The notes below the pieces were generated by a model. It searched no databases. It saw only the letters and a list, made by a program, of their open reading frames with translations, and was not told where the DNA came from. Of a DNA stretch of 21,652 bases, positions 1 through 8,682 are shown in pieces. This stretch comes from a virus. Where the stretch lies: positions 1 through 21,652 of IMG/VR virus record IMGVR_UViG_3300017734_000103; one strand, given 5' to 3'. Numbering within the stretch: position 1 is the first letter of the stretch; every line of letters begins with the position of its first letter. The position numbers and the translations under genes were made by a program.

Positions 1-1
1 G

Positions 2-130
2 TTGCATGCGATGGGCATTGAGGTTCAGGCTGATTATCAGGACGAGGGTGGTATGTTTGAGGGTGAGTATCATCACGGCGAGGATCGTTCGTGGGATCCT
101 GAGATTAAGGAGGAGATGGAAGATGTCTAG
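2..130 (+). CDS. C-terminal fragment of an unrecognised acidic phage protein
   Basis: The reading frame is open from the left edge of the window and stops with TAG at 128-130, so only the last 42 residues are present and the start lies outside. The visible part is strongly acidic, with many Glu and Asp residues, and ends in KEEMEDV. The next gene starts inside it at 123, in another frame, and its ribosome binding site (AGGAGG-like, 109-116) lies within this coding sequence, a typical operon overlap. No motif is recognised and no function can be given. An internal ATG at 11 could be a start, but the frame is open before it. Confidence 0.55.
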   Translation: MHAMGIEVQADYQDEGGMFEGEYHHGEDRSWDPEIKEEMEDV

Positions 131-326
131 TTTACCGTTGAACCAAGAGCAGTTGAAGAATTTTATTTTGCACCATGTACATCTGTGGGCGCAGGAGAGT
201 GTGGAAGAGCACGGCGGAGAGTTGTGGGAGGCAATGGATGTAGAGTTCAGTTCCTTCTATATACAAATGGCGGACAAGTTACGCAACGAGGTGTTGCCTG
301 AGTTTTACAAAGAGGAGGCGGCGTGA
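123..326 (+). CDS. Small hypothetical phage protein, 67 aa
   Basis: This 67-residue protein starts MSSLPLNQEQLKN at ATG 123, which sits about 8 bases after an AGGAGG-type ribosome binding site. The frame is open further upstream to position 6, but that extension is Arg/Val-rich and overlaps the preceding gene out of frame, so 123 is preferred. The sequence is predicted to be mostly helical and acidic (WAQESVEEHGGELWEAMDVEF). No family is recognised. The stop TGA at 324-326 overlaps the ATG of the next tiny frame (TGATG), and the gene lies in a tightly packed + strand early operon. Confidence 0.75.
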   Translation: MSSLPLNQEQLKNFILHHVHLWAQESVEEHGGELWEAMDVEFSSFYIQMADKLRNEVLPEFYKEEAA

Positions 327-370
327 TGAGTAAGATGAAAGAGTTGTTGATCGAGGAGGAGAAGAAATGA
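326..370 (+). CDS. Possible 14-residue linking peptide ORF
   Basis: ATG at 326 overlaps the stop of the previous gene, and the TGA at 368-370 overlaps the ATG of the next gene at 367. This gives a complete frame MSKMKELLIEEEKK that bridges the two genes with no gap. Its 3' half is also the purine-rich ribosome binding region (GAGGAGGAGAAGA) of the following gene. It may be a real micro-peptide, a translational coupling device, or simply a chance reading through a purine-rich leader. The overlaps on both sides are the only evidence. Confidence 0.3.
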   Translation: MSKMKELLIEEEKK

Positions 371-615
371 TTAGAGAATTTTGGAAACGGCTGACGCGCA
401 AGCGTCGGAGCAATAAGAAGCTGACGCGCAAGGAGCAGATCTTGGGTGAGTTGGACCGAGGAGCGGGGACTGCGAAGCAGTTGTCGGACCGCACGGGATT
501 GAAGCTTACGATTGTTCGGGCGACGATGACCCAGTTACACAAGGCTGGTTTAATTGTGGACACTGGAAAGAAGTCTGGACGCGAGGGCGTTTGGATTGTG
601 AAAAAAAGTTCTTGA
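367..615 (+). CDS. Winged-helix DNA-binding protein, 82 aa
   Basis: The first 20 residues are very basic (Arg and Lys rich). They are followed from about residue 22 to 80 by a pattern typical of small winged-helix domains: a first helix EQILGELDRG, then AKQLSDRTGLKLTIVRATMTQL as helix-turn-helix, then HKAGLIVDTGKKSGREGVWIV as the recognition-helix end plus a beta wing. This is the MarR/ArsR-like architecture common in phage regulators, though no exact family is claimed. The protein probably binds DNA and may regulate the early operon. A GAGGAGGAGAAG ribosome binding site precedes ATG 367. The stop is at 613-615, and the next gene begins 66 bases later after its own AAGGAG site. Confidence 0.75.
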   Translation: MIREFWKRLTRKRRSNKKLTRKEQILGELDRGAGTAKQLSDRTGLKLTIVRATMTQLHKAGLIVDTGKKSGREGVWIVKKSS

Positions 616-681
616 CTAACGCGCAGAGCGCATGTCACAAACAAGTTACTATCAACTAGAAGCCAAGTAAGGAGAAAACAC

Positions 682-1458
682 ATGGCAACGAAGAAAGCAC
701 CACAAGAGTCTGCATTGGAAATTCAACCATTGAAGCAGGGTCGCGTTAAACTTCGGATGATGGGCACTACCCCGTTGTATTTCAACAGCATGAGCAGCAA
801 GGCTATGCGTGATTTGTTGATTGGTGGGGGTCGCAAGACTGCGGCGCAGAAGAAAGAGATCAAGCACAACCCTGAGCAGGAGTTTCGTGATTCGGTTTAC
901 AAGAAGTCTTTTGGGGATACGTTGTTATGTTTCCCTGCTCCAGGGGTCAAGGGCGCGATGGCTACGGCTGCGTTGGAGACTGACGGGATTACGAAGACGA
1001 GTGTGCAGCGGTTGATTTTTTTACCTCAGACGCATGTTCAGATATGGGGCAAGCCTCAGTTGAAGATTGACATGGTTCGCTCTGCGGACATGAACAAGAC
1101 GCCGGACATGCGGACGCGGGCTTACTTGCCTCGTTGGTGTGCGGAGGTTGACATTGCGTATGTTCAGCCGACGTTGAGTGCGTATTCGATTGTGTCGTTG
1201 TTGACGAATGCGGGATCGATTGTTGGGATTGGAGACTTCCGACAGGAGAAGGGCCGAGGATCGTTTGGCACGTTCCAAGTTCTGACTGAGGACAGCATGG
1301 GTTCATTTCAGAGTGAGTGGGATGAGTTGATGTTGGAGGATCGAGCGGTTCAGCAGGATGCGATGGACAACCCTGTGTTTGCGGATGAGCAGACTGAGGA
1401 GTTGATGCAATTCATGGCGGAGGAGAGATCCCGCCGTGATATTACTTTAGTTGCGTAA
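682..1458 (+). CDS. Hypothetical phage protein with RAMP/Cas7-like sequence features, 258 aa
   Basis: The start ATG 682 follows a good AAGGAG site. Near the N-terminus is a strand-like segment GRVKLRMMGTTPLYFNSMS (residues about 19-37). In the middle are a small-residue motif, FPAPGVKGAMATAA, and the segment RTRAYLPRWCAEVDIAY. Near residues 173-196 is a glycine-rich segment, NAGSIVGIGDFRQEKGRG followed by SFGTFQV. The order TPL strand, PG-KGA motif and late glycine-rich GxG loop resembles the RAMP fold (Cas5/Cas6/Cas7 relatives), in which IPGSSLKG and G-rich loops are hallmarks. The resemblance is by eye at motif level, so the function is an inference. The last 50 residues are acidic and helical. 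A hairpin and then a 506-bp pentamer-periodic repeat region follow the gene directly. I believe similar proteins occur in other phages as hypothetical proteins. Confidence 0.8.
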   Translation: MATKKAPQESALEIQPLKQGRVKLRMMGTTPLYFNSMSSKAMRDLLIGGGRKTAAQKKEIKHNPEQEFRDSVYKKSFGDTLLCFPAPGVKGAMATAALETDGITKTSVQRLIFLPQTHVQIWGKPQLKIDMVRSADMNKTPDMRTRAYLPRWCAEVDIAYVQPTLSAYSIVSLLTNAGSIVGIGDFRQEKGRGSFGTFQVLTEDSMGSFQSEWDELMLEDRAVQQDAMDNPVFADEQTEELMQFMAEERSRRDITLVA

Positions 1459-1461
1459 GAA

Positions 1462-1487
1462 GGATCGGGGGCCGCGAGCCCCCATCC
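1462..1487 (+). terminator. Strong GC hairpin after the RAMP-like gene, weak intrinsic terminator
   Basis: The stop codon ends at 1458, and 3 bases later comes GGAT-C-GGGGGC, loop CGCGA, GCCCCC-ATCC. This gives a 6-bp pure G-C stem (1467-1472 with 1478-1483), extended by GGAT/ATCC after one bulged C. It is followed by ATTTGG and no real T tract, so it may terminate poorly. It could instead mark the boundary of, or protect the 5' end of, the repeat region that starts right behind it. Confidence 0.5.
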
Positions 1488-1490
1488 ATT

Positions 1491-1996
1491 TGGTCAAGGT
1501 TAGACGGTCTGGGTGAGGTGCGGTCGAGCACGTTCGGTTAGGGCGGGGTACGGTCCGGTTGGGTCAGGTTTGTTAAGGCGGTCACGGTGGTTTAGTTCGG
1601 GTTGGGCGTGGTAGGTCAGGTAAGGTAAGTCGGTCTAGGTTGGGTACGGCGGTGGGTGTCGGGTTGTGTTGGGTCAGGGTTTGTTACGGCGGTCATGTTG
1701 CGGTTCGGTTGGGTCTTATAAGGCTCGGTTGGGTCGGGTGTGTTAAGGCGGTCGGGGTCACTCTAGGTGAGGTGTGATGTGTTCGGTTAAGTTATGGTCA
1801 CGGTAAGGCGGTCGGGGTGAGATGTGTTTCGGCTTTATTGGTTTTGGTATCGTATGTTAAGGCGGTCACGGTTCTGGTCGGTTAAGTTGCGTCTGGGTAC
1901 GTCGAGGTGTGGTACGGCAGGCTAAGGCGGTCAAGGTGTGTTGTGTTCGGGCATGTAGATTTTCGGTGAGGTATGTTCGGGTGAGGCACGGCGGTC
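1491..1996 (+). repeat. G/T-rich pentamer-periodic array with about 59-bp higher-order anchors
   Basis: This gene-free stretch fills the gap between a 258-aa gene and a 165-aa gene. The + strand is highly biased: bases 1561-1620 contain G 28, T 18, C 7 and A 7. Two periods are visible. First, GGT (or GTT/GGC) recurs every 5 bases in one phase: triplets start at 1512, 1517, 1522, 1532, 1537, 1542, 1547, 1552, 1557, 1562, 1567, 1572 and 1577, with only the 1527 slot missing; other runs are 1702/1707/1712 and 1722/1727/1732/1737. Second, the anchor (T)TAAGGCGGTC or a one-base variant begins (AA/AC base) at 1575, 1627, 1686, 1745, 1805, 1859, 1924 and 1988, with spacings of 52, 59, 59, 60, 54, 65 and 64. 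No long ORF lies inside. The last anchor ends 17 bases before the ribosome binding site of the next gene. Role unknown: RNA scaffold, origin iterons or recombination-prone spacer are all possible. Confidence 0.85.
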
Positions 1997-2025
1997 AATT
2001 AAACAGCTATATAAGGAGAAAAGAA

Positions 2026-2523
2026 ATGGCTGGTTTTCCAAAGAAAGAACGTCAAAGAATTATTGACGAATATCTAGCGGCATCTGGGAACAACATGTTT
2101 GTTCCGCACGAGTTTGTGGATTGGTTGGGTGGACAGCCTGATCATGAGGCATATGATTGGTTCTATGGTATGGATGATGCGCAAGCTGCGCGTCAACATC
2201 GGATCCAGTTGGCTCGTCAGATGGCGAGTGGTCTAAGGATCGTGGTTCAAGACACGACGACCAATGATCAGGTGGTTAGTTTATCGGTTCGTGAGTACCC
2301 TACGTTCATCAGTCCTGTGAGTTTACGCAAGAGTGGTGGAGGGTATGAGCGGTTTGATCCTGATAGCAGTGATGCTCAACAAGAATTACGCAGACAGGCG
2401 GCGACGGCTATGGCATCTTGGTTATCAAGATATCGTGGGTGTGCTGAGAACATCGGTTTGGACATGGGTCCTTTGGAGGATATTGCTCAGACGTTGCGGG
2501 GTGTTGAGGAGGAAGTTGCGTGA
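2026..2523 (+). CDS. Hypothetical phage protein, 165 aa
   Basis: ATG 2026 is chosen because an AGGAG site sits 7 bases upstream. The frame stays open back to 1909, but that part is translated from the G/T repeat array and is Arg/Val-rich nonsense-like sequence. The protein begins MAGFPKKERQRIIDEYLAAS and contains NNMFVPHEFVDWL and HEAYDWFYGMDDAQAARQHRIQLARQM. It then has a beta-rich middle (LRIVVQDTTTNDQVVSLSV) and a C-terminal helical part (AATAMASWLSRYRG). It looks like a conserved phage or prophage protein of unknown function. It is translationally coupled to the next gene, whose GTG overlaps its TGA stop. Confidence 0.8.
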   Translation: MAGFPKKERQRIIDEYLAASGNNMFVPHEFVDWLGGQPDHEAYDWFYGMDDAQAARQHRIQLARQMASGLRIVVQDTTTNDQVVSLSVREYPTFISPVSLRKSGGGYERFDPDSSDAQQELRRQAATAMASWLSRYRGCAENIGLDMGPLEDIAQTLRGVEEEVA

Positions 2524-2765
2524 TTGAATATTTTACAGCGTTGGTCCTGCATTATGAGGTGCAGGACCATGAGATGGAGACGGTGGTTTGGTTTGAGAAC
2601 GAGGCTCAATGTCAGGCGGTCATGGATCAGGACATTGCGATGCCGTTGTACGATGAGCTTTATAGTTTGTACGGCAACAACATCATGATGTTTTGTGAGG
2701 TGACCGATAAACCATCGAGGGTGGTACGACCGAAGATTAGGCCGGAGGGACTGGGCAATGGGTGA
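2520..2765 (+). CDS. Small hypothetical phage protein with GTG start, 81 aa
   Basis: The GTG at 2520 overlaps the TGA stop of the previous gene (GTGA), and the upstream purine-rich GAGGAGGAAG in that gene's end acts as ribosome binding site. The protein reads IEYFTALVLHYEVQDHEMETVVWF, then a helical EAQCQAVMDQDI segment, then YSLYGNNIMMFCEVTDKPSRVVRPKIRPEG. The alternating hydrophobic pattern suggests a small alpha/beta fold. No family is recognised. The following gene's ATG (2758) lies inside its last codons. Confidence 0.7.
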   Translation: MIEYFTALVLHYEVQDHEMETVVWFENEAQCQAVMDQDIAMPLYDELYSLYGNNIMMFCEVTDKPSRVVRPKIRPEGLGNG

Positions 2766-2946
2766 CAGTGATTTAACTACATTCCAAGCGGCTCAGTTGA
2801 ACTGGCTCAAGCGTCAGGTTGATGCGTTACAGGAGGAGCGGTATCGCAGAGATGCGAGGCCCAATGTACAGCGTGAGTTATTCGCTGCGCGTGAAGAACT
2901 GGATACATATGTTAAGAACCTTCGTGAAACGGGCAAGCAGATATGA
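2758..2946 (+). CDS. Small helical hypothetical protein, 62 aa
   Basis: ATG 2758 overlaps the end of the previous gene by 8 bases, and a GGAGGGACTGGGCA stretch supplies the ribosome binding site. The protein is almost entirely helix-forming and charged (QLNWLKRQVDALQEERYRRD and ELFAAREELDTYVKNLRET), so a short coiled coil is likely. Its TGA stop overlaps the next ATG (ATGA at 2943-2946). The product is unrecognised. It is part of the tightly coupled early operon. Confidence 0.7.
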   Translation: MGDSDLTTFQAAQLNWLKRQVDALQEERYRRDARPNVQRELFAAREELDTYVKNLRETGKQI

Positions 2947-3290
2947 ACACATACAAGCGTGATAAGTACGAGGACATTTATCGTCAGGCGTGGTTGGCGC
3001 AGAACATCAAGGACAAGGCAGACAATCCGCGTTGGAATGGTGGGATAAGCAGCAGTGCGTTGAACGGGTTCACGAAGCATACGTCGGTGAACAAGGGTGG
3101 GCGTCCGAAGTTGTCGTTATCCAAGGATGCGGTGATGTTAAACAAGTTGCTGCAACGTGAGATTTCTTTAAACGATGCGGCTGACATCTTGGGCTTGACC
3201 GTTAAGTCTTTGCGTCAAATTAAATCAAGATACGGGTTACCAAGGAGCAAGGATGAAAAACCTTCTGACGTACATTCCAACGCGGATTAA
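2943..3290 (+). CDS. Helix-turn-helix DNA-binding protein, 115 aa
   Basis: ATG 2943 overlaps the preceding stop. Residues 51-57 (KGGRPKL) contain a GRP core like an AT-hook minor-groove binder, with basic residues after it but not a full hook. Residues about 74-99 (ISLNDAADILGLTVKSLRQI, then KSRYGL) form a clear helix-turn-helix of the Hin/transposase or sigma-region-4 type, where NDAADILGLTVKSLRQI are the two helices. A phage regulator or DNA-binding accessory protein is the likely role. The last 38 bases overlap the start of the next small gene in another frame. Confidence 0.7.
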   Translation: MNTYKRDKYEDIYRQAWLAQNIKDKADNPRWNGGISSSALNGFTKHTSVNKGGRPKLSLSKDAVMLNKLLQREISLNDAADILGLTVKSLRQIKSRYGLPRSKDEKPSDVHSNAD

Positions 3291-3423
3291 AGAACTGAAC
3301 CAAGAGATCGATGATATACTGTGGGAAGACACCGCGGATCCGAGGATCGAGCAGTTGGTAGAAGAACTCAATTATTTAAAGAGCCAAGAAGAGAAAGGAG
3401 AACTCTATGAGCCAGACTTTTGA
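3253..3423 (+). CDS. Small helical hypothetical protein, 56 aa
   Basis: ATG 3253 follows a CAAGGAGC ribosome binding site at a spacing of about 5-6 bases. The frame reads MKNLLTYIPTRIKELNQEID and continues as an acidic helix containing DDILWEDTADPRIEQLVEEL, ending in LYEPDF at the TGA 3421-3423. It overlaps the previous gene by 38 bases and the next gene by 17 bases, in the same dense pattern as the rest of the operon. The helix pattern suggests a small coiled coil. No family is recognised. Confidence 0.6.
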   Translation: MKNLLTYIPTRIKELNQEIDDILWEDTADPRIEQLVEELNYLKSQEEKGELYEPDF

Positions 3424-3661
3424 GACGAAGAAAAAGTTTCAGTCGGAAGAGATGACTGTTTTGATAGAGGATCTAACTCATTCCGACAGTGCGTTCGGTG
3501 TGAATGAAGAGGGTGACGGGGTGTTCTTCGGCACCAGGATCGTTGAGAAGATGGAGCTTGAACCTGGAGACGAGGTTACGGCGCACTGCATTCCTAATTA
3601 TGTGGACAAGCGGGACGAGATACCGTGGCGCTGCATAAAGATTTCCCACAAGAACGATTAA
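3407..3661 (+). CDS. Small protein with cold-shock/OB-like look, 84 aa
   Basis: A clear AAAGGAG site precedes ATG 3407. From residue about 29 the sequence reads SAFGVNEEGDGVFFGTRIVE, then KMELEPGDEVTAHCIPNYVD, then IPWRCIKI. The order G-x-G-like turn, DGVFF strand, L-x-P/G-D-x-V strand and final strand resembles the cold-shock domain plan (GFGFI, VFVH, L-x-GxxVxF). RNA or single-stranded DNA binding is therefore a reasonable guess, but the classic RNP aromatic motifs are not conserved. The stop at 3659-3661 lies 7 bases before the hairpin that controls the next gene. Confidence 0.7.
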   Translation: MSQTFETKKKFQSEEMTVLIEDLTHSDSAFGVNEEGDGVFFGTRIVEKMELEPGDEVTAHCIPNYVDKRDEIPWRCIKISHKND

Positions 3662-3668
3662 CTTGCAA

Positions 3669-3713
3669 CTTGTCCTCCAGTGGGTTAGAAGTAACCAACA
3701 AATGGAGGACAAG
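3669..3713 (+). promoter_or_regulatory. Hairpin sequestering the ribosome binding site of the RHH gene, possible operator
   Basis: CTTGTCCTCCA (3669-3679) and TGGAGGACAAG (3703-3713) are perfect 11-base inverted arms. Between them GGTTA-GAAG-TAACC (3683-3696) makes an inner 5-bp stem, with two further pairs across one G-A mismatch. The distal arm contains the only Shine-Dalgarno sequence (GGAGG, 3704-3708) of the gene starting at 3716, at ideal 7-base spacing, so the RNA hairpin would block translation. As DNA, the same inverted repeat could be a binding site for the ribbon-helix-helix protein encoded directly downstream. Confidence 0.75.
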
Positions 3714-3715
3714 CT

Positions 3716-3886
3716 ATGGCTCGTAAGAAGATGAAAGAGAAAGACAAGCAGCAATTTCAGAATGTTGGCTTGATCAAAGAGGATCATGACCTGCTTCGCA
3801 AGTTGGCGGACGCAGAGCAGAGGTCCATGGCACGACAACTATCTGTATTGATTAGAAAAGCTATTGCTGAATTAGAGACGGCTTGA
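3716..3886 (+). CDS. Ribbon-helix-helix (Arc/CopG-like) regulator, 56 aa
   Basis: The frame reads MARKKMKEKDKQQFQNVGLI, then a KEDHDLLRKLADAEQRSMARQ stretch and LSVLIRKAIAELETA. The basic N-terminus, short beta strand (QNVGLI), helix (EDHDLLRKLADAEQ), turn and second helix (SMARQLSVLIRKAIAEL) match the ribbon-helix-helix plan of Arc, MetJ and CopG in both order and length. Such proteins bind DNA as dimers through the paired strands and are often autorepressors. The 5' leader contains an inverted repeat that masks its ribosome binding site. It is the last gene of the left + strand block and is followed by a terminator. Confidence 0.8.
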   Translation: MARKKMKEKDKQQFQNVGLIKEDHDLLRKLADAEQRSMARQLSVLIRKAIAELETA

Positions 3887-3946
3887 TATACTTTACCTAC
3901 TGCTCGAATAGGTTCACGCCTGTGGCCTTATTTGCCCTCATTAACT

Positions 3947-3996
3947 AACCCCGACCCGGCTAGGATTCGCACTGCAACGGTTGGGGTTATTTTTTT
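3947..3996 (+). terminator. Rho-independent terminator of the early + strand operon
   Basis: AACCCCGACC (3947-3956) pairs with GGTTGGGGTT (3979-3988) in a 10-bp stem with one G-U wobble, around a 22-base loop, followed by ATTTTTTT to 3996. This fits an intrinsic terminator for the + strand. The stem overlaps the stop codon of the convergent - strand gene at 3987-3989, so it may also slow transcripts from that side, though no T tract exists there. About 60 bases before it, from 3887, contain nothing recognisable. Confidence 0.8.
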
Positions 3997-4235
3997 GCCT
4001 CATTAGATTTGCCTTTTTTGCCTGCGATTTGGTAGTCCTTTTCTTTGGAGTACCCTCGGATTTGTGTGACGTTGGTGTAGGATTTATTCATTCCTTTGAG
4101 CAGGGCTTTTGCTACGTCATCCTCTAGGCCTGTTTGTTCGGCAAGGACCTTGGCCCCCGTATCAAGGGTCCGAAGTCCTTTCTTATAGTCCACCATGGTT
4201 TCGATTATTTCATCGTGGGTTTTAGACTTAGCCAT
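3987..4235 (-). CDS. Small basic hypothetical protein, 82 aa
   Basis: This protein is encoded downstream of the SNF2-like helicase on the - strand and overlaps its last 31 bases, so the two form a two-gene operon. It begins MAKSKTHDEIIETMVDYKKG, has a helical middle (DTGAKVLAEQTGLEDDVAKA) and a Lys-rich tail (YQIAGKKGKSNEAKK). AAGGGA just upstream of ATG 4235 can serve as ribosome binding site. No family is recognised. A nucleic-acid contact through the basic tail, or a partner role for the helicase, is only suggested by composition and context. Confidence 0.7.
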   Translation of the reverse strand: MAKSKTHDEIIETMVDYKKGLRTLDTGAKVLAEQTGLEDDVAKALLKGMNKSYTNVTQIRGYSKEKDYQIAGKKGKSNEAKK

Positions 4236-5674
4236 TCCCTTGCTTCCTCTCCTAATACTTTGGCGCCAATATCGATCTTGGTTCGAAGGGCCTTGACTAT
4301 GCGTTCATCGATGCTGCCTTCGCAGATCAGATCGATGTATGTCACGTTGTTCTTTTGTCCGATCCGGTGAGCTCGATCCTCTGATTGGATCCGGGTTTCC
4401 AGATTGAAGTCGTTGGCATAGTATACCACGAGGTTTGCCTCGGTCAAAGTCAGACCGTATCCTGCGGTGGCGGGGTTACCTACGAAGAATCGAAGTGGGT
4501 GGTTTGGATTCTGGAAGTTCTTGACGATGTCATTGCGTTCGTCGTCGGTTGTGTCCCCGAAGTATGCCGCAGCGGATCCTTCTCCAAACTTATCGTTCAG
4601 CATTTGTGTGATCTGTTGGATGTCGTACCGGAAGCGGGACCAGATGATAGCTTTCCCGTCGTGCTCGTCCATGATCTCGGTCAGGGCATCCATGCGTTTG
4701 GATGGGAAGTACAGCATCTCACCGTCGTCGGTCTTTAGATGGCCGGACATTATCTGTTGGAGCCGCAGCATCTGCGTGATTACTGCGGGTGCGGTGACCA
4801 ACTCACCGTCATCAAGCAGCACCATGGCATGGCGGCGCACATCCTCGTACATCTTGAACTGTTCGGAGGTCATGCCGACATACCTGGCGGTGTAGATTTT
4901 GTCGGGGAGATCGAGGCAGTCCTTCTTTAATACGCGGAAGGAGAACATGTCGATCTTGTTGGTGAGCTCGTCGAGATTCTTGAACCCAATGATTTGTTGG
5001 AAGGCTGCTTGACCCATGGTCTTGCGTTGCACTACGGCGTAGCGTCCTTGGAACGCGTAGTACGAATCATATCCCAAGAGCCCAGGGCGGAGAAACTCGC
5101 ACTGCGAATATATATCCATTGGGCTTTTTGTTATGGGTGAGCCTGTCAAGAGTCTTCTATACTTGAACCCCGCAGCGATTTTCATTAGAGCTTTGGTGCG
5201 CTTGGCCTTATGGTTTTTGATGGTGGTTGATTCGTCGATTGCGATCATACCGTTTGAGCCCAGCGCACGAGCCATCCATTCCCCCGCATTCTTACCTTTG
5301 AGAGATGAGAATGATTCGACGTTCATGACGAAGATGGTCAGGCCGTTGAACTTATCTTTGACTGAGCGCATCTCTTCGGTTTGTTTTTTGTTTGGACTAG
5401 ACACCCAACGTATGACGCGATGGGGTATATCATCGGACATATGCTCGGGGATTTCTTTGGCTACCCAGTTGCGATACACGCCTTTGGGTGCGATGACCAA
5501 GGCGAAGTTGATCAGCCCTGATTGATACAGCATGCCCATGTTGTCGATTAGAACTTTGGATTTACCTGTCCCCATCTCCATGAACAAACCAAACTCGATT
5601 CGATCCCACCCGTCATCCAAGGCTTCGGCCTGATGATTAAACGGTGGTAATTTATATTTGTAGTTGACAACCAT
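4205..5674 (-). CDS. SNF2-like superfamily II DNA helicase/ATPase, 489 aa
   Basis: Motifs are in the order expected of SNF2/SWI2 proteins: an N-terminal Q-like NHQAEALD, motif I MGTGKS at residues 34-39 (Walker A), motif II IDEST at 146-150 (DExx Walker B), motif III LLTGSP at 175-180, the second RecA lobe with AIIWSRFRYDIQQI around 342-355, motif V GYGLTLTEAN at 405-414, and motif VI QSEDRAHRIGQ at 430-440, the near-invariant SNF2 signature. Such phage proteins are ATP-driven DNA translocases or branch-remodelling helicases (UvsW-like role). The length fits a minimal two-lobe core without accessory domains. GGAGG lies 7 bases before ATG 5674. Being on the opposite strand from all other replication genes is notable. 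Confidence 0.93.
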   Translation of the reverse strand: MVVNYKYKLPPFNHQAEALDDGWDRIEFGLFMEMGTGKSKVLIDNMGMLYQSGLINFALVIAPKGVYRNWVAKEIPEHMSDDIPHRVIRWVSSPNKKQTEEMRSVKDKFNGLTIFVMNVESFSSLKGKNAGEWMARALGSNGMIAIDESTTIKNHKAKRTKALMKIAAGFKYRRLLTGSPITKSPMDIYSQCEFLRPGLLGYDSYYAFQGRYAVVQRKTMGQAAFQQIIGFKNLDELTNKIDMFSFRVLKKDCLDLPDKIYTARYVGMTSEQFKMYEDVRRHAMVLLDDGELVTAPAVITQMLRLQQIMSGHLKTDDGEMLYFPSKRMDALTEIMDEHDGKAIIWSRFRYDIQQITQMLNDKFGEGSAAAYFGDTTDDERNDIVKNFQNPNHPLRFFVGNPATAGYGLTLTEANLVVYYANDFNLETRIQSEDRAHRIGQKNNVTYIDLICEGSIDERIVKALRTKIDIGAKVLGEEAREWLSLKPTMK

Positions 5675-5693
5675 TATATACCTCCACTATTGT
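5664..5693 (+). promoter_or_regulatory. Candidate sigma70-type promoter of the replication operon
   Basis: TTGACA at 5664-5669 is a perfect -35 hexamer. TATTGT at 5688-5693, 18 bases later, is a fair -10 box (4 of 6 to TATAAT). A start near 5700 would give a leader of about 50 bases before ATG 5751. The -35 box overlaps the first codons of the divergent helicase gene, so transcription in the two directions would interfere. A TTGATT/TATCCG pair on the - strand (5725-5730 and 5701-5706) is a weak candidate for the helicase. Confidence 0.45.
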
Positions 5694-5700
5694 CCACTAA

Positions 5701-5720
5701 CGGATAGCATGGTGCTACCG
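5701..5720. promoter_or_regulatory. Imperfect palindrome in the divergent control region
   Basis: CGG-A-TAGCA, loop TGG, TGCTA-CCG forms an 8-bp stem with one bulged A, between the two divergent genes and right after the predicted start of the + transcript. It may be an operator for one of the HTH or RHH proteins encoded nearby, or a 5' leader hairpin. Only the symmetry and the position support it. Confidence 0.35.
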
Positions 5721-5750
5721 GATAAATCAACCCTGAAGAGGAAAAACTTT

Positions 5751-6308
5751 ATGAGCGATATATTTGAAGACTTATACGACGAATCGGAGGCGCTCGCGTC
5801 TGTCGATACTGGAACCGGAAAGCAGTTAAGTCAACTGGTTCGCAAACTTCGCGCTGTTGAGAAAGAGATCAGCGATGCGGAGGACCACATCAAAGCTATG
5901 AAGCAAGAGAAGCACAAGCTTTCGGTCGAGAACATCCCCGCCTTAATGGATGAGATGGGCGTCGAGCGTCTGGATGTGGACGGCTCTGTTGTGGAGCGTA
6001 AGATGATTGTTGCTGCGTCAATACCTGCGGCAAACAAAGAGGCCGCGTTTGATTGGCTTCGGTCCAATGGCTTGGATGACATCATCAAGAATGACATTAC
6101 CGTGTCCTTTGGTAAGGGCGAGGATAATGTGGCGGGCGACGTTGTCGGACTGCTGCAAGAGCGTGGCTTCGATCCGAAGACCAAGACCCACGTTCACCCT
6201 TCTACACTCAAAGCCTTCGTTAAGGAGCGCGTGATAGAAGGTAAGCCGATTGATCTCGATCTGTTCGGGGCTTTCATTTCCAATACAGCACAAATCCGGA
6301 GGAAGTAA
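5751..6308 (+). CDS. Coiled-coil phage protein of the replication operon, 185 aa
   Basis: ATG 5751 is preferred because a GAAGAGGA site lies just upstream. The open frame reaches back to 5664 but would run over the promoter. Residues about 20-70 form a strong charged helix (SQLVRKLRAVEKEISDAEDH, then IKAMKQEKHKLSVENIPALM), a likely coiled coil. This is followed by a MGVERLDVDGSVVERK strand pair and an alpha/beta C-terminal part with HPSTLKAFVKERVIEG. The long N-terminal helix is reminiscent of Gam-like nuclease inhibitors, but no diagnostic motif is seen. It sits 1 base from the SSB-like gene, so a replication or recombination accessory role is likely. Confidence 0.75.
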   Translation: MSDIFEDLYDESEALASVDTGTGKQLSQLVRKLRAVEKEISDAEDHIKAMKQEKHKLSVENIPALMDEMGVERLDVDGSVVERKMIVAASIPAANKEAAFDWLRSNGLDDIIKNDITVSFGKGEDNVAGDVVGLLQERGFDPKTKTHVHPSTLKAFVKERVIEGKPIDLDLFGAFISNTAQIRRK

Positions 6309-6309
6309 T

Positions 6310-7101
6310 ATGGGTGCCGTAGCTAAGAAAAAAAGTGCAGAGTTAAGCACAGATGTCATGGATGACATCCTAGAGTTTGCTGGAGAAGGCGCCGCCTTTG
6401 ACAGTTCTGAAATGCAGATCCCGTTTGTTCGTATTCTGCAAGCGATGTCCCCGCAGCTTAACAAGCGCGAGGCCAGTCACATCAAGGGTTCGGAGCAAGG
6501 TGATCTGTTTAACAACGTCACCATGGAACTGTTCACAGGAGAGGACGGGGTTACTGTCATTCCCTGCTACCAGACTGTTAAGTACCTGGAGTTCGTGCCT
6601 CGGGATCAAGGTGGTGGTTTCCAAGGAGAGATTGCTGCAACCGATCCTGTGTTGCAACAGACTTCCCGCTCGGGATCCAAGGAGATCCTGCCCAACGGCA
6701 ATGAGTTGGTCAAATCAGATCAGCACTTCTGCTTGCTAATTGGAGAGGACGGGATCACGCAACCTGTTGTGATCGACATGAAGTCTAGCCAGTTGAAGGT
6801 CAGCCGTCGTTGGAAGACCCAGATTGCGATGCAAAAGGTTAAGCATCCAAAGACAGGGCAGATGGTTCTGCCACCCCTGTTCGCTACGATCTGGAAGTTC
6901 AGCACTGTTGAAGAGAGCAATGACCAAGGTACATGGTTCAACTATCAGATCGAAAAGGTCGGGTTGGTTGAGAGCCGTGACCTAATGCTTGAGGCCAAAG
7001 CCTTCCGCGACAGTGTCGCTGCGGGCGAAGTGAAAGCTGCACCGGAGGAAGGGGCTTCCACTCCCACTCCTCCATTGAAGGATGATGAAATCCCCTTCTA
7101 G
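6310..7101 (+). CDS. Single-stranded DNA-binding protein candidate, 263 aa
   Basis: ATG 6310 follows GGAGGAAGTAAT. The protein ends with PPLKDDEIPF, the acidic hydrophobic tip (like bacterial SSB DDDIPF) that recruits partner proteins. Before it is a flexible Ala/Pro/Glu stretch (EVKAAPEEGASTPTPPLKDD), the usual linker composition. The core (residues about 30-215) is beta-rich: IPFVRILQAMSPQL, then LFNNVTMELFTGEDGVTVIP and YQTVKYLEFVP, then SSQLKVSRRWKTQI and IWKFSTVEES. An OB-like ssDNA-binding core is inferred, not proven. The family is not the E. coli SSB family itself. A strong terminator hairpin follows, and the primase is next in the operon. Confidence 0.8.
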   Translation: MGAVAKKKSAELSTDVMDDILEFAGEGAAFDSSEMQIPFVRILQAMSPQLNKREASHIKGSEQGDLFNNVTMELFTGEDGVTVIPCYQTVKYLEFVPRDQGGGFQGEIAATDPVLQQTSRSGSKEILPNGNELVKSDQHFCLLIGEDGITQPVVIDMKSSQLKVSRRWKTQIAMQKVKHPKTGQMVLPPLFATIWKFSTVEESNDQGTWFNYQIEKVGLVESRDLMLEAKAFRDSVAAGEVKAAPEEGASTPTPPLKDDEIPF

Positions 7102-7155: not shown

Positions 7156-8682
7156 ATGTCACAATCTAAAAAACTGCTTGCCGCGTTTGCCGGAGCCAAG
7201 AATGCTCACGGCACGACATCCGTAGGTCGGATAGGTCGGAACGGTAAGGCAGACTCAAAGAGTAAGATTATCCGCGAGCCGTTGACCGAGGCGCTAGTCA
7301 AAGCGCACATCAAGGGTGAGCAGGGGGTTGGGGCTATCCCGATCAACGAAGACAATAAATGTCGGTTCGGTGCTATAGATGTGGATGTCTATGATCTGAA
7401 CCAGAAAGAAATGCAGGACAAGATCCAGAAGCTCAAGCTTCCGCTGCTGCATTGCAGATCTAAATCCGGAGGCGCCCATCTCTATTTGTTTCTAAAGGAG
7501 TGGGAGCAAGCAGCCGTGGTCCGAGAATACCTGACCGAGATGTCGATCATGCTTGGGCACAGTGGCGTTGAGATTTTTCCAAAGCAGGACACGATCATTG
7601 CCGAGCGCGGTGATGTTGGAAACTTTATAAACATGCCGTACTTCAATGCGGAAACCCCGCAGCGGTATTGCTACAATCCCAACGGCGAAGCCATGGAACT
7701 GGATGAGTTCTTGGATGCGGTGGAAAAGAACCGGGTTGAGTTGGCTGACTTGGAAGCCTTGCGCAGCACGACCAAGGTTCGCAAACACTTCGACGATGGT
7801 CCTCCCTGCATACGCAACATCTTTTCGGACGGGCCACAGAGCGAGCCGAGGAACAAGCTTTTGTTTTTCATGGGCGTGTACTGCAAGAAGAAGTTTCCGG
7901 ATAGTTGGCAAGCCTCCCTGGAGGAATACAACCGCACGTTATTCTCTCCGCCCCTTCCATCCTCAGAGGTGCTGACCGTAATCAAACAGCACGAGAAGAA
8001 AGACTGGGGGTATACCTGTAAGGACGAACCGTTCAAGTCATACTGCGATCCATCTCTGTGCGTCTTGGCAAAGCACGGGATCAGCGATGATGCGCCTGAT
8101 GCGCCGCAGGTTGGTGGGCTTACGATCATGTTGTCTGAGCCTCGGTTATATTTCATGGATGTAAACGGGTTGCGGATTCAGTTGGGCTCAGAGCAGTTGC
8201 AGAATCAAACGCTGTGGCAGCGAGCTTGCATGGAGCAATGTAACTTTATGCCGCCGACTACTAAGCCACAGAAGTGGCAGCAGATGGTCAACAGTTTGAT
8301 GAGCCAAGCAACGTACATCGATGTGCCGTATGAGGAGACGATTGCGGGTCAGTTTAAGGAGCACTTGTTTTCCTACTGCACCAGTCACATTCGCGCCATG
8401 GCTCCAGAAGAAATCGAGATGAATAAACCGTGGACCGATGGTGGTGTAACGAAGTTTAAGTTGGAAGGCCTGTTGGAATATCTGCACCATCGAAGGTTTG
8501 TTGGTCAGACGCGAGCGCACATTATCCAGATGATACGGGACATGGGCGGGGACAATGGGATCCAACATGTTACTAAAAAGAAAGGGCAGCGGACAACGAT
8601 ACGATGTTGGTATGTACCTGCTTTTGAAGAAGATGAAACCGAATTGCCTGTGAAGGAGATATCAAATGACATCCCATTCTAA
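7156..8682 (+). CDS. Archaeo-eukaryotic-type primase (AEP / PrimPol-like), 508 aa
   Basis: The N-terminal half has the AEP signature series: FGAIDVDVYD with the catalytic acid pair D75 and D77, then KSGGAHLYLFL with H108 (the sGxH motif), then GVEIFPKQ at 137-144 and GNFINMPYF at 155-163. This arrangement matches the AEP domain of the kind described in TOTE conflict elements and many phages, which makes primers and sometimes extends DNA. No helicase motif is seen in the C-terminal half, which is helical and of unknown role. The very end, VKEISNDIPF, copies an SSB-type acidic tip. The start is after GGGAG. The last 17 bases overlap the next gene. Confidence 0.87.
   Translation: MSQSKKLLAAFAGAKNAHGTTSVGRIGRNGKADSKSKIIREPLTEALVKAHIKGEQGVGAIPINEDNKCRFGAIDVDVYDLNQKEMQDKIQKLKLPLLHCRSKSGGAHLYLFLKEWEQAAVVREYLTEMSIMLGHSGVEIFPKQDTIIAERGDVGNFINMPYFNAETPQRYCYNPNGEAMELDEFLDAVEKNRVELADLEALRSTTKVRKHFDDGPPCIRNIFSDGPQSEPRNKLLFFMGVYCKKKFPDSWQASLEEYNRTLFSPPLPSSEVLTVIKQHEKKDWGYTCKDEPFKSYCDPSLCVLAKHGISDDAPDAPQVGGLTIMLSEPRLYFMDVNGLRIQLGSEQLQNQTLWQRACMEQCNFMPPTTKPQKWQQMVNSLMSQATYIDVPYEETIAGQFKEHLFSYCTSHIRAMAPEEIEMNKPWTDGGVTKFKLEGLLEYLHHRRFVGQTRAHIIQMIRDMGGDNGIQHVTKKKGQRTTIRCWYVPAFEEDETELPVKEISNDIPF

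Follow-up and report, generated by a model that had tools for sequence, protein, structure and literature searches.

The systems closest to the locus described here are the Viral Interference Programmable Repeat (VIPR) systems, reported in a preprint of April 2026 (PMC13142463). According to the available part of that preprint, a VIPR system pairs a RAMP protein with RNAs of alternating GGY and NN, whose NN pairs read DNA with one base skipped, and its guides, of 9 to 16 repeats each, lie next to vipr (PMC13142463). The same portion of the text recognizes seven VIPR types, names staggered arrays with overlapping vrRNAs (fig. S18), and presents experiments on the SUSP1 and P. fulva systems that address RNP formation, DNA binding, and repression (PMC13142463). 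The type II system of Escherichia phage SUSP1 has four separate guides, each followed by a 3′ tail of about 50 to 60 nt. The CRISPR class 1 effectors (Csm/Cas7) also combine a RAMP protein fold with a guide array.

We analyzed a 21,652-nt stretch of viral DNA, positions 1 to 21,652 of IMG/VR record IMGVR_UViG_3300017734_000103 (hereafter, the window), in which an array of G-[GT]-[CT]-N-N pentamers grouped into guides, with GGCGGTY junctions between them, occupies positions 1492–1996 of the + strand. We are highly confident that it is the vrRNA array of a VIPR system. An earlier note on this DNA had called the repeat architecture undescribed, but its alternating GGY/NN code is that of the vrRNAs in the published VIPR systems (PMC13142463). 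The periodicity that the note had proposed is real. When base identity at each lag was compared with 500 dinucleotide-preserving shuffles of 1491–1996, z was 5.2, 5.0, 4.3, 3.3, 3.7, and 3.3 at lags 5, 10, 15, 20, 25, and 30, and further identity peaks appeared at lags 54 and 59; GGT-to-GGT spacing peaks at 59 and 64. GGT occurs 59 times in this region versus 40 expected, and the + strand contains 217 G, 155 T, 69 C, and 65 A. As the note had also held, the array itself holds no reading frame: the ORF at 1909–2523 is only the next gene with its start extended upstream. Tandem Repeats Finder returned only fragments of the array, and a distant blastn search with it against phage records gave no match, as expected for a degenerate code. 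Rfam assigned no family within positions 1–4500, where a chance match to RsmY fell far below the cut-off, and it placed no hammerhead ribozymes, the mark of hammerhead-interspersed VIPR, between the guides.

Immediately upstream of the array lies a gene (682–1458, + strand) for a 258-residue protein of phrog_4652, which we designate vipr. Its AlphaFold model (pLDDT 77.5, pTM 0.74) has a RAMP/Cas7 fold: all 50 matches at E ≤ 0.001 in a PDB fold search were CRISPR effector complexes, nearly all of them Csm or type VII Cas7-like RAMP chains. The Vipr profile also matches PDB 36pp_D, "SUSP1 Vipr protein" (E = 1.5e-4), and hhalign of the two proteins gave 95.9% over 59 columns, a sequence link that spans only about 55 to 60 residues. 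The array is thus accompanied by a RAMP-fold protein related to SUSP1 Vipr, with the invariant glycine-rich residues G182, G184, G191, and G196. Between the vipr stop codon and the array, a GC hairpin (GGGGGC-CGCGA-GCCCCC, 1467–1483, + strand) may serve as a leader or stabilizing element, judging from its sequence; inspection by eye found hairpins of other sequence at the same place in four relatives (L028, L031, L060, and L055). Downstream of the array is a candidate vap (VIPR-accessory) gene (2026–2523, + strand) encoding a mostly helical protein of 165 residues that belongs to no known family of assigned function, matched no fold in the PDB, and is not a relative of SUSP1 Vap1. The gene's longest called ORF opens within the array at GTG 1909; the likely start codon is ATG 2026, downstream of AAGGAG. 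The gene probably encodes an accessory protein. Neither gene was recognized by Pfam, NCBIfam, or PADLOC.

The three elements travel together. A search with the upstream protein yielded 75 viral contigs, nearly all of which have a gap of 288 to 990 bp 3′ of the vipr homologue with the same composition and lag-5 signal; in the most distant relatives the array sits one gene further on. By the earlier note, absence of a similar array from this place in all related phages would have refuted its reading; such an array is present at or near the place in nearly all of them. Conversely, when viral contigs were scanned with the DNA pattern alone and no protein query, homologues of both neighboring genes were present in all 35 loci with at least 2.2 kb on either side of the array. 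The array strand was that of the vipr homologue in 99 of 99 loci. The earlier note was right to take the array for a conserved, noncoding, strand-specific element selected for its period. Placement is variable: the array may lie before, after, or on both sides of its neighbors, as a single block or several, each 0.1 to 2.6 kb long, with the order gene-array-gene in 52 loci, two flanking arrays in 16, the array last in 11, and other arrangements besides. Across 213 distinct units, the pentamer consensus is G (94%), G (61%) or T (31%), T (64%) or C (31%), and two near-flat N positions. A parser for these pentamers, built from the relatives of the window, also marked the SUSP1 vrRNA tracts, one upstream and three downstream, which served as a positive control.

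Several loci deserve separate mention. The arrays at L082:2037–4551 and L185:5162–7747, of 2.5 to 2.6 kb next to vipr, are among the longest found. In Mycobacterium phage Donkeykong, the annotated hypothetical gene gp48 (L197:3486–3872) overlaps a GKYNN array that immediately precedes the vipr homologue gp49, and it is probably not a real gene. In Cyanophage Cy-LDV1, arrays (L196:4625–4808 and 5420–5566) neighbor g34, the homologue of vipr, within a prophage-like element of cyanobacteria that also encodes cI, excisionase, bet, and exonuclease. A VIPR module also lies within a very large viral contig of 375,937 bp (L110, IMGVR_UViG_3300026302_000005), which could be a jumbo phage or a provirus inside a host contig. 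Elsewhere in the window, positions 7156–8682 encode a TOTE-family AEP primase and 3407–3661 a small protein with a weak S1CSD-TOTE-2 domain match, and the two products may be functionally linked; two adjacent proteins encoded at 5664–7101 match the Pam3 phage gp33-like and gp34-like families of unknown function.

The anchor in the earlier note proved to be the boundary between guides. Its eight recurrences were confirmed, but the spacing is 40 to 71 rather than 52 to 65, and only three copies of the full TTAAGGCGGTC are present. The element that recurs is GGCGGTN, which starts at 1577, 1648, 1688, 1747, 1807, 1861, 1926, and 1990, with degenerate versions at 1503 (GACGGTC) and 1629 (GTCGGTC). 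In the junction at 1577–1583 (GGCGGTC, + strand), GGC closes one guide and GGTC starts the next. That the junction shifts the 5-base phase, as had been proposed, is upheld by the relatives: of about 311 distances measured from junction to junction, 221 equal 4 modulo 5. We read each guide from the first NN pair after GGTC through the last pair before the next GGC. So read, guide 1 (1510–1576, + strand) comprises about 14 pentamers after the degenerate junction GACGGTC, and guide 4 (1695–1746, + strand) spells 11 dinucleotides (AT GC TC TG CT AA TC TG CG GT AA). Guide 6 (1814–1860, + strand) reads GG GA GT TC TT TG TT AT AT AA, and guide 8 (1933–1989, + strand) reads AA GT GT CG AT GA TC GA AT CG GA AC. 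Frame breaks interrupt units 2, 3, 5, and 7 of the window, and hence only some units read as clean guides.

The NN pairs match DNA when exactly one target base is skipped between pairs. With arrays masked in 194 loci, a skip of one gave matches at ≤1 mismatch for 7 of the 559 guides, and no guide matched at skips of 0, 2, or 3 or after shuffling. In an enlarged 3.5-Mb set with arrays masked, which is still a limited sample of DNA for such a comparison, 7 of 568 guides matched perfectly under a skip of one versus zero in all seven controls (skips of 0, 2, and 3, and shuffled guides at all skips); at ≤1 mismatch, the numbers were 13 versus 0 to 2. Inside the matched units, base identity was 81 to 100% at nearly every dinucleotide, and beyond the junctions on both sides it fell to the chance level of 12 to 30%. 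This collapse indicates that each unit is one discrete guide with GGC|GGTC as its border. The targets across the family lie in genes for TerL (two sites), TerS, the prohead protease, and the major tail protein, and in BppU_N-like and Sak4-like genes, and the skipped base usually falls at the codon wobble position of the target.

Two of the window's own guides follow the same rule. The first 10 pairs of guide 8 match the codons for KVVRMESDIR in a small-terminase gene, with mismatch at three of the four last bases; in all of IMG/VR, the 10-pair pattern occurs in three contigs, and each occurrence falls on these codons in a member of that small-terminase family. All 10 pairs of guide 6 match, in antisense, the codons with which a BppU_N-like phage gene encodes its N-terminal FIIKQNDTSP, and they skip the wobble positions. 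Its 9-pair pattern was found in 15 contigs versus one for the shuffled order, and the tenth pair also matched in 10 of the 15, those inspected all lying at the same BppU_N-like gene start. Guide 6 had no exact match when cellular genomes were scanned, and neither guide 6 nor guide 8 has a self-target at ≤3 mismatches in 11 records of up to 65.6 kb (the window and relatives). Guides 1, 4, 5, and 7 had no convincing target in the local set, and guide 4 also gave no match in an exact scan of viral contigs. Some of the contigs targeted by guides of the family (L107, L114, L125, L136, and L179) bear VIPR arrays themselves, and L125 is both attacker and target. A large-terminase gene on L376, a contig from a single-cell genome of Paracoccaceae, is matched by several guides, one with 10 of 10 pairs; this hints that the host belongs to the Rhodobacterales.

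These matches bear directly on readings of the array in which the NN positions carry no message. Targets of TRAP, the tryptophan RNA-binding attenuation protein, consist of triplets and 2-nt spacers with a 5-nt period, and the spacers are noninformative. An RNA sponge or scaffold bound in this manner at triplets, with no guide role, would share the triplet, the two spacer bases, and the period of the array, and it would suit an RNA whose predicted structure does not exceed that of shuffles (fold z = +0.85). Spacers of that kind should drift, yet phages that share one target retain the NN pairs as their K and Y scaffold bases diverge, indicating that the NN content is what is selected; here, the pairs spell codon positions 1 and 2 of phage genes, and the spacers are the code. 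We regard such a scaffold as very improbable. The earlier note's suggestion of an RNA scaffold or protein-coating track probably holds insofar as the RNA is coated by protein, but it overlooked the information in the NN positions and the role of the junctions in bounding guides. A DNA-level element, in which a phage protein would bind GGT pentamers in double- or single-stranded DNA at origin iterons, a partition site, or primase start sites, draws on the regular spacing, the strong strand bias, and a location among early/replication genes, close to a primase of the AEP type (Pfam AEP-TOTE). It is hard to reconcile with the shifting placement and block number of the arrays, with a strand that is always that of vipr, and with NN positions that match foreign genes under one specific skip rule, and we give it very little credence. 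The least credible reading is that the sequence forms G-quadruplexes or R-loops: on this G-rich strand, GG pairs that recur at about 5-base intervals, 3 bases apart, could stack as two-layer quadruplexes, but these require neither the 5-base phase nor a conserved Y, GT occupies the second position in one of three units, and the linked RAMP protein and gene-specific NN content would be left unexplained. The iterons, R-loops, and G-quadruplexes invoked in the earlier note are unnecessary, and the iteron, primase-site, G-quadruplex, and TRAP-like readings, weighed before the guides were decoded, were dropped.

As a VIPR array, the locus resembles the SUSP1 type II system (PMC13142463; PDB 36pp), insofar as that system is described in the available part of the preprint, in its RAMP-fold Vipr, the adjacent GGY/NN tandem-repeat RNAs, the second small gene, and the one-base-skip targeting of other mobile elements. 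Unlike in SUSP1, the 6 to 12 guides are usually tailless and joined end to end by the 7-base junction GGCGGTY; T is frequent as the second base of the pentamer, and the accessory gene is not related to vap1. The invariable structured 3′ tail of each tract that marks type II was not found in the window. With G or T as the second base and more than a quarter of the family's units holding 7 to 8 pairs, the consensus is slightly looser than that given in the available part of the VIPR preprint. The staggered vrRNA arrays named there (PMC13142463) may have the same architecture of tandem tracts changing phase; in our family, target matches end at the junctions, so neighboring units share no guide information. 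The array differs from CRISPR class 1 systems in lacking long repeats, in its gapped rather than contiguous pairing, and in being encoded by a phage; the window's pentamers are degenerate rather than near-identical repeats separating unique spacers, no cas1, cas2, or other cas genes were seen, and PADLOC found no match to the two associated genes. We tentatively suggest, as a possibility we would not yet favor, that the family is a compact tail-less VIPR type, maybe outside the seven published ones, in which up to about 40 guides are set apart, and possibly also processed, by nothing more than the 7-base GGC|GGTY junction, the accessory protein is of a new family, and marine phages hit conserved protein motifs in the terminase, protease, and tail genes of rivals, some of which bear VIPR themselves.

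The marine phage represented by the window probably uses VIPR to silence packaging and virion genes of rival phages. We propose that the array would be transcribed with the operon and then cut or trimmed to vrRNAs of about 45 to 70 nt, one for each stretch bounded by GGC|GGTC. Each pentamer of a guide would be occupied by one subunit of a Vipr polymer, which would grip the conserved G-K-Y bases and leave the two N bases exposed. These exposed pairs would base-pair with double-stranded DNA, with one target base passed over from each pair to the next, and the 2026–2523 product would probably be the accessory protein. Binding would repress transcription of competitors' packaging and virion genes, such as the small-terminase and BppU_N-like genes. 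RNP formation, DNA binding, and repression are ascribed to this system by analogy with the SUSP1 and P. fulva experiments as presented in the available text (PMC13142463). The computed results provide independent confirmation of the VIPR code, in that the unit, the one-base skip, and the guide boundaries emerge from raw phage DNA, and they widen the range of VIPR targets by dozens of contigs from marine phages, several acting as attacker and target alike. Because the guides read codon positions 1 and 2 of conserved motifs, they can match many species and resist silent mutation, and the hundreds of decoded guides could map which uncultured phages compete within one host.
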